In this document: positions 7,281-11,774 of the stretch, one piece after another
Position numbering within the stretch: position 1 is the stretch's first letter
Layout of the letters: each line of letters opens with the position of its first letter
Origin: a virus
Reading direction: 5' to 3' (one strand)
IMG/VR virus record: IMGVR_UViG_3300032294_000871
Location: 1 to 30,172 of that record
DNA length: 30,172 bases
The notes under the pieces: model-generated
The model's database searches: none
The model's input: the letters and a program-made list of their open reading frames with translations, nothing else
Told to the model about the DNA's origin: nothing
Program-made: the position numbers and the translations under genes

Positions 7281-7772
7281 TCAGATCTTCATCTTGCTTC
7301 CACAGTGTGGACATAGTTGCACATCATCATCTGGTGCTTGCTCTGCATCGACTTCATCAGCCATCAGTTCAGCCAGTTCATCAGCACCAAAGCCAGTCAT
7401 TGCCACATCGTATCCATCAGCATGCAGCGTGTCAAGTTCAACACGCAACAATTCTTCATCCCATCCAGCATCAAGCGCAAGACGGTTATCAGCAATGACG
7501 TATGCACGCTTCTGCTGTTCAGTCATGTATTCCAATCGCACCACTGGCACGTTATCCATTTGCAAGTGTTGTGCAGCCAGCACACGTCCGTGCCCAGCTA
7601 TGATCGTGCCATCAGAATCAATAAGCACTGGGTTGGTGAAACCAAACTCACGTATGCTCGCTGCAATACGTTTCACTTGCTCTGGTGAATGTGTACGGCT
7701 GTTACGTGCATACGGTGTCAGTGCTGACAGTTGCACGTATTCAATCTGCTGTTTGTCGGTTTTGGTACGCAT
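7281..7772 (-). CDS. ParB-like N-terminal domain protein with C-terminal zinc-knuckle half
   Basis: The 163-aa protein has the ParB/Srx-type domain over residues 8-130: IEYVQLSALTPYARNSRTH, IREFGFTNPVLIDSDGTI and the signature IIAGHGRVLAA at 57-67, then EYMTEQQKRAYVIADNRLAL. This domain is common in phage proteins where it often precedes a DNA methyltransferase; here no methylase follows. An acidic linker leads to a short CPHCGSK tail, one half of a possible zinc site. Directly upstream of terS, so a role in packaging-site handling or DNA modification is possible but unproven. ATG at 7772 was chosen because the frame upstream crosses a tRNA-like structure. Confidence 0.85.
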   Translation of the reverse strand: MRTKTDKQQIEYVQLSALTPYARNSRTHSPEQVKRIAASIREFGFTNPVLIDSDGTIIAGHGRVLAAQHLQMDNVPVVRLEYMTEQQKRAYVIADNRLALDAGWDEELLRVELDTLHADGYDVAMTGFGADELAELMADEVDAEQAPDDDVQLCPHCGSKMKI

Positions 7773-7828
7773 TATGCACCCAATGTAAGAAACGTTTGCA
7801 GAATTGCGATATGTTTTGTATGCATGTT

Positions 7829-7903
7829 GCACGCTGCTTGGATTTGAACCAAGATGCACCCAGCCATGAATCCGCGCCAACGGTTGTTGGTTGTGCCAGC
7901 GTG
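7829..7903 (-). other. tRNA-like structure (degenerate or unusual tRNA)
   Basis: On the minus strand CACGCTG and CAGCGTG form a perfect 7-bp acceptor-like stem 74 bases end to end. Just inside is a perfect T-arm, CTTGG-TTCAAAT-CCAAG, with the canonical GGTTCAAATCC consensus. CCAAC/GTTGG can form a D-like hairpin. However position 8 is not T, the D loop lacks GG, the anticodon arm does not pair well (loop ATTCATG or TTCATGG, anticodon ambiguous between TCA and CAT), and no CCA follows. It is therefore a decayed tRNA or another tRNA-shaped RNA. It sits in the largest intergenic gap (7773-7991). Confidence 0.4.
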
Positions 7904-7991
7904 TTGCCCATACGATCCCACTCGCATGGTAGTTCATCGAGTTACATAACCATGTTGCCCTGTGGTATGTTGGTGAATAGTTATTTACGCG

Positions 7992-8184: not shown

Positions 8185-8754
8185 TCATTTCCAGTATGAA
8201 TGAGCAATAGTTGCTGCTGGTGGGTATTTCTTGATCCATTGATCTGCCTTGACTTTCTCACGATGAACAGCAAGTACTTCGTTTGAAAAAGCAAGTGCTT
8301 CATCAAAGCTTTTAAACTTCTTTTGTTTGATCTCCATGACCTTCACACCCATATCAGTCTGCACCTTGCCAACTACGATCAATCTCCATTCTTGTCCATG
8401 ACGGTTGAATCGCATTGATTTGTTGTGCGCAATGATACCAGACCATATTGCAACGCATCTTTCGACGTGCTCAGATCCAAGTGCGTTGCGATCACCACAA
8501 CCAATCAGTGCATAGAAACGTTCTGCACTTGCACCAGTCTTCATCGACTGAATGCGATTGCGCTGTGCAAGTGTCATGATCTTGCGTGGTGTACGTGGTG
8601 GCCTTGCTGGTGGCGAGACTGTTGCAAACTTCACAGCAGAACCACCGTTGATGTACACTGGCGGTTTCTGTATTATCTCGACTGTCGGAATACCCAGCCA
8701 GTCAGCAATGATCTTGCGCCAGCCCGTGACTGGCTTTTTGTGCTTTGTGCTCAT
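8185..8754 (-). CDS. Hypothetical early protein (189 aa), basic
   Basis: ATG at 8754 has GGAG nine bases upstream; an in-frame ATG at 8769 has only a distant GGGG. The N-terminus contains WRKIIADWLGIPTVEIIQKP, followed by a Pro/Arg-rich linker (SPPARPPRTPRKIMTLAQRN) typical of a flexible, possibly nucleic-acid-binding, region. The C-terminal half is mixed alpha/beta (EWRLIVVGKVQTDMGVKVME). It follows the replication initiator gene, so a helper of replication is one possibility. I do not recognise the family. Confidence 0.75.
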   Translation of the reverse strand: MSTKHKKPVTGWRKIIADWLGIPTVEIIQKPPVYINGGSAVKFATVSPPARPPRTPRKIMTLAQRNRIQSMKTGASAERFYALIGCGDRNALGSEHVERCVAIWSGIIAHNKSMRFNRHGQEWRLIVVGKVQTDMGVKVMEIKQKKFKSFDEALAFSNEVLAVHREKVKADQWIKKYPPAATIAHSYWK

Positions 8755-8817
8755 TTGCACTTGCTCCATGTGTTGTGAATACCCCTATTACGCACAGAAA
8801 CGTGCGCTGTTGCGTTT

Positions 8818-9612
8818 TTATTCGTCTGGTGTCACTTTGGACAGGTACGCAGCTTTGAACGCGTCTACGTCCGTTTGTGACAGTTTCGGCCTATTCGCGA
8901 TTTCAACCACGTGTTTTGGCAATCCTTGCGGTGCTGTTCGTGCTTGCGTCGGTTGCTGCTGTGCAACACGATCGTTGAAACCCTTGCGCCAATTCCGTGC
9001 TGCTGCTTTCCAATCCTTCATCGGATTGCGTCCGACACGCCAGCCATTGGCTGTGTAGTAATCCGTGAACCGTTGCGCCTCTGATGCTGGCATGTTCAGT
9101 TCACCAAAGTACGCAATGCACTCTGAATCATCAACTGGCCTTGCGTGCGTGGTGCGCTTGCGCACACTACCAACATTCTTTTCTTCTGTCTTATTCTGTT
9201 CTGTTATGTTATGTAATAGCATTGCATTTGCATCTGATTTGCATTGCATTTGCATTGCATTTGCATCCCAGCGCTTTGCAGCTGCTTGCTTGCGTCTGGT
9301 GCTAACTTCATGGCGTGCCATGATGTTACGTTCAATGCGTTCACACTTCACTTCATCGTTGGCTGTCACTTCGAAAAGACCATGTTGCACGAACATGTGC
9401 AATGCTTGTTGTGCCTCTTGTTGTGACACTCGCATCACCACTTGCAATGAATCTGCAACATCAGCAGTGGTTGCATCTGGTGTGTAGTGCAGCATTTCGA
9501 CTACGTGCCAGTACATGCCATATGCACTTGCACCACCCTCACGAATCATGCGCATGATCTTCACATCACGTGTTGCGTGGTAATCGTGTGGAAACCACTC
9601 TTTCACTGCCAT
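8818..9612 (-). CDS. Replication initiator / helicase-loader-like protein (DUF4373-type N-terminus)
   Basis: The 264-aa protein has two recognisable parts. Residues 1-95 match the DUF4373 (Lin1244/Lin1753) pattern of phage and plasmid replication proteins: WFPHDYHATRDVKIMRMI, then GGASAYGMYWHVVEMLHYTP, a winged-helix-like fold. Residues about 165-220 resemble the C-terminal part of DnaT/lambda O-like replication proteins: TDYYTANGWRVGRNPMKDWK and AAARNWRKGF. The linker is Ala/Met/Asn-repetitive because its DNA carries an 11-bp repeat array (9212-9266), a candidate origin. It likely binds the origin and recruits the host replisome; no polymerase is encoded here. It overlaps the endonuclease gene by ten bases. 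Confidence 0.8.
   Translation of the reverse strand: MAVKEWFPHDYHATRDVKIMRMIREGGASAYGMYWHVVEMLHYTPDATTADVADSLQVVMRVSQQEAQQALHMFVQHGLFEVTANDEVKCERIERNIMARHEVSTRRKQAAAKRWDANAMQMQCKSDANAMLLHNITEQNKTEEKNVGSVRKRTTHARPVDDSECIAYFGELNMPASEAQRFTDYYTANGWRVGRNPMKDWKAAARNWRKGFNDRVAQQQPTQARTAPQGLPKHVVEIANRPKLSQTDVDAFKAAYLSKVTPDE
9212..9266. repeat. Iteron-like array: five 11-bp units inside the replication initiator gene
   Basis: The plus strand shows TGCATTTGCAT exactly at 9223-9233, 9245-9255 and 9256-9266, with diverged units CTGATTTGCAT (9234-9244) and TGTAATAGCAT (9212-9222). The units are contiguous with a period of 11, close to one helical turn and not a multiple of three, so the constraint is on DNA rather than protein. 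The neighbouring 9171-9219 is about 31% GC and pyrimidine-rich on the plus strand. Known lambdoid origins have iterons plus an AT-rich region inside the O gene. Confidence 0.6.
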
Positions 9613-10638: not shown

Positions 10639-10754
10639 AGATGCTGCCTTTGTTCTTTGTAAAGAAACCAAACCACGATGAACAAAATGCTTGTTGAAAG
10701 TATTGCCATGACAGTTGCAACGTATGCCAAAATCACTTGCACGTATTCACTCAT
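10635..10754 (-). CDS. Small single-pass membrane protein (39 aa)
   Basis: ATG at 10754 and the stop both make ATGA overlaps with neighbouring genes, which supports this tiny gene. It consists of a short polar start (MSEYVQ), a hydrophobic stretch of about 25 residues (VILAYVATVMAILSTSILFI followed by VVWF) and a positively charged tail. It would be an inner-membrane protein with the basic end in the cytoplasm. Function unknown; host takeover or superinfection roles are possible guesses only. Confidence 0.7.
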   Translation of the reverse strand: MSEYVQVILAYVATVMAILSTSILFIVVWFLYKEQRQHL

Positions 10755-11041
10755 AGCTGCCTCGTTTCGGCTTTGGCGATGGCGGCGAATGCTAAGTCCC
10801 ACGCTGCGTTTTCCTCGTCGCTTGGATCTGTACAACTGCACCCACCCCAACACTGCGAACGCAATGCCTTCAACGCTTCCAGCATCTCAGGCGCGGCGGC
10901 GATGAGACTGCGATTGGGTTCGGTTATGGCGTAGATGTCGCATCCAACTATCTCGTTGTTGGAATCAACAATCGAAAAGACATGATTGGCATGTTGCACC
11001 CATCGCCACGGTCCTGGCGTGTGCTTCGGTGCGTCGCTCAT
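10751..11041 (-). CDS. HTPGPW-family phage protein, paralogue of the next gene (96 aa)
   Basis: The protein has the pattern KHTPGPWRW at the start, a middle region naming ITEPNRSLIAAAPEMLEALK, and AFAAIAKAE near the end. Small phage proteins with HTPGPW...LIAAAPELLEAL are very common, but their function is unknown. ATGA overlaps link it to both neighbours. Its DNA is visibly richer in GC (GGCGCGGCGGCGATG) than the surroundings, which suggests recent acquisition. Six cysteine-containing positions near CWGGCSCTDP are a local insertion relative to the paralogue. Confidence 0.85.
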   Translation of the reverse strand: MSDAPKHTPGPWRWVQHANHVFSIVDSNNEIVGCDIYAITEPNRSLIAAAPEMLEALKALRSQCWGGCSCTDPSDEENAAWDLAFAAIAKAETRQL

Positions 11042-11352
11042 TCCTGCCTCCCTTCGGCTTTGGCGATGGCGGCTTCTGCAAAAGCGATTCTGCCGTCTTC
11101 GTCGAAGTGGTCGCTGTTGTCCATCTCGTAGGCAATGGCCGACGGGAGAATGCGCTTCAACGCCTCCAGCATCTCAGGTGCTGCTGCGATCAATTTCCAG
11201 TCCTCAGGTCGCAAATTGATCCTGTTGGAATAGCCTGCAGCCTGCAGTAGAATGTAGCCCATACGTTCTGGATATGTAAGATTCCAGATACCAAATGTGC
11301 CGTCATACCAAGCTACCCACGGCCCTGGCGTGTGCTTTGGTGTGTCGTTCAT
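11038..11352 (-). CDS. HTPGPW-family phage protein, paralogue (104 aa)
   Basis: ATG at 11352 follows the upstream stop by two bases and has TGGGG upstream. It shares KHTPGPW, KLIAAAPEMLEALKRIL and EAAIAKAEGRQ with the neighbouring 96-aa gene. Their 3-prime ends also share a near-identical DNA stretch (CGGCTTTGGCGATGGCGGC on the plus strand), which shows a tandem duplication or parallel acquisition. The family function is unknown. Overlaps its paralogue by ATGA. Confidence 0.85.
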   Translation of the reverse strand: MNDTPKHTPGPWVAWYDGTFGIWNLTYPERMGYILLQAAGYSNRINLRPEDWKLIAAAPEMLEALKRILPSAIAYEMDNSDHFDEDGRIAFAEAAIAKAEGRQE

Positions 11353-11354
11353 GA

Positions 11355-11774
11355 TCAACCCCACTGAAAAATAAAGAATGGTTCACGCATGTTCAGTGCT
11401 GGCCCATAGATAGCCCACACACGTTGCACATCACGTCTTGCTTGCTCTGCATGATACTTCGCATTGCGCTCTTGCTGTTCCAATCGTGATCGGTGTTCTG
11501 CCTCTGCACGCAATACCTCTTGTTTCAAGAATGCATCTTTGGCCTTGCGAATCTCTGCATGCATCACTTGTGCATGTGCAATCGCCATGCGTTGTACTGC
11601 GAGAAACTCCAATGGCGTGCGCACATAGAACTTCGTTGTGACATCCTTGCGTTCGCCATCGCGATTGTACCGAAAGTGAACAACAAAGTATGGGTTGCAA
11701 CTTGCTGACACATACAGAATCACGTTGCGTGCTGCTCTGTACTTGCCAGCCTTCAATGGCAGTGCTTTGATCAT
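11355..11774 (-). CDS. Hypothetical protein with long charged helix (139 aa)
   Basis: The first 60 residues (LKAGKYRAARNVILYVSASC, YFVVHFRYNRDGERKDVTTK) form a beta-rich domain with a faint likeness to the arm-binding domain of tyrosine integrases, but no catalytic integrase domain exists here, so I do not call it one. Residues 75-125 are a charged, Ala/Glu/Arg/Gln-rich helix, probably a coiled coil. ATG at 11774 makes an ATGA overlap with the upstream gene. Function unknown; DNA binding is possible. Confidence 0.7.
   Translation of the reverse strand: MIKALPLKAGKYRAARNVILYVSASCNPYFVVHFRYNRDGERKDVTTKFYVRTPLEFLAVQRMAIAHAQVMHAEIRKAKDAFLKQEVLRAEAEHRSRLEQQERNAKYHAEQARRDVQRVWAIYGPALNMREPFFIFQWG

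Follow-up and report, generated by a model that had tools for sequence, protein, structure and literature searches.

A putative initiator gene with an 11-bp array

The window, a 30,172-nucleotide stretch of viral DNA (IMG/VR record IMGVR_UViG_3300032294_000871), contains on its minus strand a putative replication initiator gene (8818..9612) encoding P0001, a protein of 264 aa. P0001 is a member of the Pfam family Lin1244_N (= DUF4373), with an E value of 5.4e-9 and 37.1 bits for a gathering cut-off of 25, and it matches PHROG 2562, 'replication initiation protein' (E 4e-8). The first-pass annotation had named it a DUF4373/DnaT-like initiator; the DUF4373 part of this name stands (Pfam E 5e-9, PHROG), while the DnaT part was loose, considering that Pfam gave no DnaT match and that the PHROG 'primosomal protein' matches were weak. 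No match to the lambda O family was found in Pfam or PHROGs, nor to the RepA_N domain in Pfam, and a PDB sequence search returned nothing useful.

The AlphaFold model of P0001, built with 56 sequences, showed an N-terminal domain with pLDDT mostly 92-98 (aa 11-110), a low-confidence segment (131-154) and a confident C-terminal domain. The winged-helix-like domain at the N terminus (aa 6-83; 9364..9597, minus strand) is supported by Pfam, by AlphaFold and by weak Foldseek matches, many of which are winged-helix DNA binders (MarR, DtxR, ArsR, ORC), the top one being a DnaD-containing model (E 0.03). As modeled, this domain likely binds DNA. The C-terminal domain (about aa 161-219; 8956..9132, minus strand; pLDDT about 90-97) contains NGWRVGRNPMKDWKAAARNW, and its partner is perhaps a helicase or a loader.

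Between these two folded parts, the codons of a junction motif, RRKQAAAKRW (AxxRW type; 9268..9297, minus strand), are followed directly on their 3' side by an array of five 11-bp units (9211..9265, minus strand), supported by TRF, exact unit matches and lag-11 self-match. Along the coding strand, which is the minus strand, the units are unit 1 TGCAAATGCAA (9265-9255), unit 2 TGCAAATGCAA (9254-9244), unit 3 TGCAAATCAGA, which is decayed (9243-9233), unit 4 TGCAAATGCAA (9232-9222) and unit 5 TGCTATTACAT, a half unit (9221-9211). From 9267 to 9219 this strand reads GA TGCAAATGCAA TGCAAATGCAA TGCAAATCAGA TGCAAATGCAA TGC, and then TATTACATAACATAACAGAACAGAATAAGACAGAAGAAAAGAAT; the geometry of the unit is a dyad, TGC-N4-GCA, plus 1 bp. 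This confirms an earlier count of five contiguous units, three identical and two diverged: exact TGCATTTGCAT occurs at only 3 places in the whole window (9223, 9245 and 9256), and one of the other units is decayed and one is a half. TRF ranked the array (period 11, 4.4 copies, 9219-9266) as the top-scoring tandem array of the window. Its lag-11 self-match is 28/33 bases, against a maximum of 18 elsewhere in the window and never more than 23 in Markov simulations of the whole window (n=200), and is thus far above chance.

The array is followed by an AT-rich tract that is high in A, low in T and contains 5-bp repeats (ATAAC ATAAC AGAAC AGAAT; 9171..9218, minus strand), recognized by its composition. 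Its GC content is 27.1%, compared with 47.4% for the window, and its coding strand has 26 A and 9 T in 48 nt; only 0.03% of the 48-bp stretches of the window are as AT-rich. The GC content of the whole of 9171-9266 is 32.3%, close to the roughly 31% first reported. The order of iterons and then a T-poor tract is common to the window and its relatives, in which equivalent tracts also come after the iterons, the window version being made of 5-bp repeats. On composition, this tract is a likely DNA unwinding element. Array and tract sit over the disordered linker between the winged-helix-like and the C-terminal domains; by the AlphaFold confidence profile, the iterons are thus flanked by a folded part on either side, an arrangement also seen in lambda O.

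We also looked at the gene neighborhood. Upstream of the initiator gene, the window carries an SSB-like gene, a Sak4-like gene and a possible exonuclease, and the gene just downstream (8185-8769) had no family match, so that no helicase or loader is seen beside the initiator gene. In other phages the gene following the DUF1376/DUF4373 gene encodes a DnaB-like helicase (Vibrio 1.236.O and 1.003.O, Acinetobacter fThrA and RM_A2) or a DnaC-like loader (Porphyromonas phage 005b), and in Rac ydaU is followed by ydaV ('putative replication protein'). The skew peak anticipated by the first-pass annotation at the candidate origin did not appear, as GC skew in the window has no inflection at the array. 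Also on the minus strand, two adjacent ORFs (10751-11041 and 11038-11364) both match phrog_1273 and are tandem paralogues with no assigned function.

Codon use in the array and its relatives

We asked how far the repeat depends on the codons of the gene. In the window gene taken alone, synonymous-codon shuffling gave a non-significant lag-11 match (z 1.4; best lag 5, family-wise p 0.068). Shuffles often regenerate the match, given the existing preference of the gene for GCA, AAT and CAA, and codon usage could explain the repeat in this gene by itself. Therefore, the argument for selection on the DNA depends on comparison and not on the window gene alone. Two close relatives, L002 and L003, keep the array with 1 and 0 synonymous changes in 19 array codons, compared with 16 and 22 in 165 codons outside it, numbers that are too few in the array to speak of constraint; the single change in L002, GCA to GCT, damages unit 4.

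The first-pass annotation had held that synonymous changes destroying the repeats in related phages would speak against an origin; a scan for DNA encoding ANAMQM showed instead that 10/10 non-redundant initiator linkers keep identical codons, GCA AAT GCA ATG CAA, even in phages that otherwise encode alanine mostly with GCC or GCG, whereas sixteen other ORFs with the same peptide, encoding unrelated proteins, have mixed codons. As judged from these codons, constraint across the family is at the DNA level.

These results also bear on the possibility that a NANAMQMQ peptide is what is selected, the DNA repeat being a by-product. Many members indeed share NANAMQM or NANAMRT. However, the exact 19-mer TGCAAATGCAATGCAAATG, found in 51 IMG/VR contigs, in most cases within the linker part of a DUF4373- or DUF1376-like gene, is usually read as NANAMQM but in other members as CKCNANA or VQMQCKC. 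Moreover, the synonymous sites are fixed in initiators only, and other classes of iterons encode unrelated peptides. We thus regard selection on the peptide as highly improbable.

Pitch-11 dyads across phages

In more distant members TGC and GCA are retained and the four bases between them vary; we therefore searched for TGC-N4-GCA plus one base. A raw scan of IMG/VR for three such units at 11-bp pitch found them in at least 120 contigs. Among the matches listed, 53/71 of the ORFs carrying the arrays were initiator-type (40 DUF1376 and 13 Lin1244_N), with 'primosomal protein' and 'replication initiation protein' as PHROG names. The arrays occupied all three codon phases (30/18/31), and the earlier proposal that the period of 11 is helical and not codon-based is borne out by this recurrence across many phages in every frame. 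At 12-bp pitch, TGC-N4-GCA fell mainly in ORFs encoding proline-alanine repeats (PAPAPA-type proteins), and only 4/49 scanned ORFs were DUF1376. AGC-N4-GCT at 11-bp pitch, taken as a negative control, was found in 72 contigs and had to be dropped as a control, considering that 34/43 of its ORFs were initiator-type (31 DUF1376 and 3 Lin1244_N); it represents a second iteron class.

We then considered genes collected by their domain and not by their repeat: 62 non-redundant initiator ORFs retrieved by scanning with alignments of the N-terminal domain. Array-carrying members made up most of these alignments, and the fractions below are thus not family-wide frequencies. The broad DUF1376 alignment was too diverse for scanning. 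Shuffles preserved each protein and its codon usage, and the control set was composed of 101 ORFs after removal of those overlapping initiator genes. Repetition of the DNA beyond synonymous shuffles was found in 40/62 initiators and in 1/101 control ORFs, with best lags of 7 (15 genes), 11 (8) and 22 (6). Pooled scoring with mismatches had a poor null, as shuffles regenerate many matches, and we relied on the exact-match test on this set. Exact phased dyads XYZ-N4-rc(XYZ) at pitch 11 were present in 23/62 initiators (22 being TGC) and 0/101 controls, for a shuffle mean of 1.1, and no comparable excess was found among the 62 initiators at pitches 10, 12, 13, 14, 15, 18 or 21. Units in this set lie at a median of 116 nt past the domain end, in codon phases 15/26/28, with GAAC as the commonest center. 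The 60 nt following them contain 49% A and 13.5% T, compared with 34.5% A and 22% T for the gene, and this T-poor tract is often made of AAAGG or CACCAGA microrepeats. A clear array was not seen in some family members, namely Rac ydaU and two Acinetobacter phages.

Further classes of iterons share the geometry: AAC in Bordetella IFTN2, Moraxella Mcat30 and contig L616, and TAC in contig L564, while coliphage mEp515 has a GGTCATGACC-like unit at lag 11. GTTCAAC at 11-bp pitch was noted as a class in L813, L814 and L616, covering Bordetella and Moraxella phages and one Lin1244_N gene. The class was the same in 55/55 comparisons above 60% domain identity and agreed no better than chance below 60%, so that class switches are frequent. 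The junction motif follows the class, as AxxRW precedes the array in 84/91 TGC-class initiators and in 0/23 of the AGC class, a difference part of which may be coding overlap since some AGC arrays begin at the junction. GG occupies the junction position in 14/23 AGC-class genes, from both domain families, with the same reservation on overlap; the upstream A-to-G change at the junction is not accounted for by coding overlap. The coupling of junction motif and class is indirect evidence for binding of the iterons by the initiator.

The location of the arrays varies too. In seven contigs, five of the AGC class (L377, L378, L386, L414 and L437) and two of the TGC class (L196 and L205), they lie inside codons of the folded DUF1376 domain, at about residues 40-60, and here the domain sequence itself accommodates DNA sites. 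In about 25 contigs (including L375, L381, L389, L393 and L418), three to four copies of AGCAAATGCT at 11-bp pitch, followed by (ATAAG)n, are non-coding, the array region being without any ORF of 100 aa. These contigs are apparently one lineage, no initiator of the DUF1376/Lin1244_N type was detected in their fetched stretches, and the arrays are possibly a stand-alone origin of this lineage. Arrays in non-coding DNA speak for an element of the DNA itself and against a property of the peptide.

A disordered linker could in principle tolerate any sequence and accumulate slippage repeats without function. The linker of P0001 is indeed disordered and the window repeat is compatible with the codon usage of its gene, but neutral expansion of this kind is very unlikely given that pitch 11, which is not a codon multiple, is favored over all other tested pitches, that half sites are retained while the center varies, that one unit is read in three frames, that arrays also occur within a folded domain and in non-coding DNA, and that control ORFs are without them.

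A candidate origin within the initiator gene

We propose that the array is an intragenic, lambda-O-like origin of an uncharacterized superfamily of winged-helix initiators, in which the geometry is fixed and the sequence changes, a reading to which we give a probability of roughly 80% on the sequence comparisons above. P0001 would use its winged-helix domain, perhaps with the aid of the basic junction helix, to bind the 11-bp dyad iterons of its own gene, with copies of the protein lined up next to one another along a single face of the DNA helix. The complex would then melt the adjoining T-poor, A-rich tract, the C-terminal domain would recruit the replicative helicase or its loader, and DNA replication would start at the array.

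A winged-helix protein could also bind its own gene to regulate transcription of replication genes, replication starting elsewhere. In its favor, self-binding sites in or near regulator genes are common, and the structure of the family is winged-helix-like. We nevertheless consider it unlikely: the arrays show regular phasing, a T-poor tract of the kind typical for unwinding elements comes after them, they lie mid-gene and not at promoters, and the protein families are annotated as replication or primosomal. It is possible that the array serves as both operator and origin.

The array might alternatively serve a ParB-like protein, or be an exchange point between initiator modules. A gene for a ParB-like partition or nuclease protein (7281-7937, minus strand) lies about 1.3 kb from the array, and both the N-terminal domains and the classes of iterons appear shuffled among lineages. 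Against this, the array goes with DUF1376/Lin1244_N genes in many phages and, in the ten phage regions viewed, had no annotated ParB gene beside it, making a partition or recombination site the least probable of the alternatives.

The origin reading has several precedents. Like the lambda ori, the window has dyad iterons and an AT-rich tract in the middle of an initiator gene, and the first-pass suggestion of a lambda-like design, with another initiator family and a shorter iteron, fits everything measured. The two differ in that the initiator families are unrelated, the lambda iteron being longer than the 10-bp dyad and 11-bp pitch found here, and in that many iteron classes share here one geometry, with a tract of 5- or 7-bp repeats. 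As P0001 has no O-family match, lambda is a precedent only for how such an origin works. The lambda ori lies mid-gene in O, and the origins of lambda and Stx phages combine inverted-repeat iterons with an AT-rich tract in the initiator gene, the helicase-loading gene P coming next (PMC7466680). In Staphylococcus phage 80alpha, the ori was inferred to lie inside ORF20, since ORF20 could not be complemented in trans (PMC5499656). ORF20 and SPP1 gene 38 resemble the window gene in having an origin inferred within the initiator gene, but they belong to different protein families and 11-bp TGC-N4-GCA arrays are not described there. RepA_N initiators (pSK41, pTZ2162 and PLE RepA) have an N-terminal DNA-binding domain structurally related to DnaD, and their iterons are semi-palindromic direct repeats that converge on an A tract (PMC7145576); they differ from the window in their Pfam family and in being mostly from plasmids or satellites, and the PLE iterons are non-coding. 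E. coli Rac ydaU-ydaV (a DUF1376-like 'primosomal protein I' and a putative replication protein) shares the domain family and the gene order, but ydaU of Rac-SA53, unlike the window gene, is without a phased 11-bp array and may be decayed. Our literature search, with subscription papers mostly outside its scope, found only the lambda, 80alpha, SPP1 and RepA_N precedents and no description of an 11-bp origin in DUF1376/Lin1244_N genes. What seems new here is the set of initiator families, an 11-bp dyad geometry that stays fixed as its sequence switches, the tract of microrepeats and the existence of versions outside coding DNA.

Taken more broadly, the arrays may define a very widespread and undescribed class of origins, a generalization for which we see even odds. 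Such origins would repeat a 10-bp dyad XYZ-N4-rc(XYZ) with a period of 11 bp ahead of a T-poor tract of 5- or 7-bp microrepeats, and would lie in DUF1376/Lin1244_N genes and sometimes in non-coding DNA; XYZ would switch by lineage (TGC, AGC, AAC, TAC and probably GGT), coupled to the junction motif (AxxRW with TGC, often GG with AGC). If so, a sequence could be enough to tell the specificity of an origin. Tailed phages and prophages commonly encode DUF1376 and DUF4373 proteins, which are still filed as domains of unknown function; their genes could then be annotated as initiator plus origin, the latter findable by a simple DNA pattern. In addition, the changes of iteron class would be a natural experiment on the co-evolution of initiator and origin, and odd peptides such as NANAMQMQ and NHQTPDT would be explained as by-products of DNA sites. 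The family includes members tractable in the laboratory, for example coliphage mEp515.

Other observations concern the C-terminal part of these proteins. In other phages, NGWRVGRNPMKDWKAAARNW is attached to N-terminal domains of many kinds, and in contig L004 (1210-2139) a C-terminal domain 71% identical to that of P0001 is joined to a different N-terminal half without the DANAMQ linker, a natural domain swap. The C-terminal motif NGWKVGKNPMKDWKAAVRNW (contigs L015-L081 as a group) is fused to many unrelated N-terminal domains as a mobile initiator C-terminal module, and the linkers before it are often repetitive (NPNPNP, DTDTDT, KESKVKESK).
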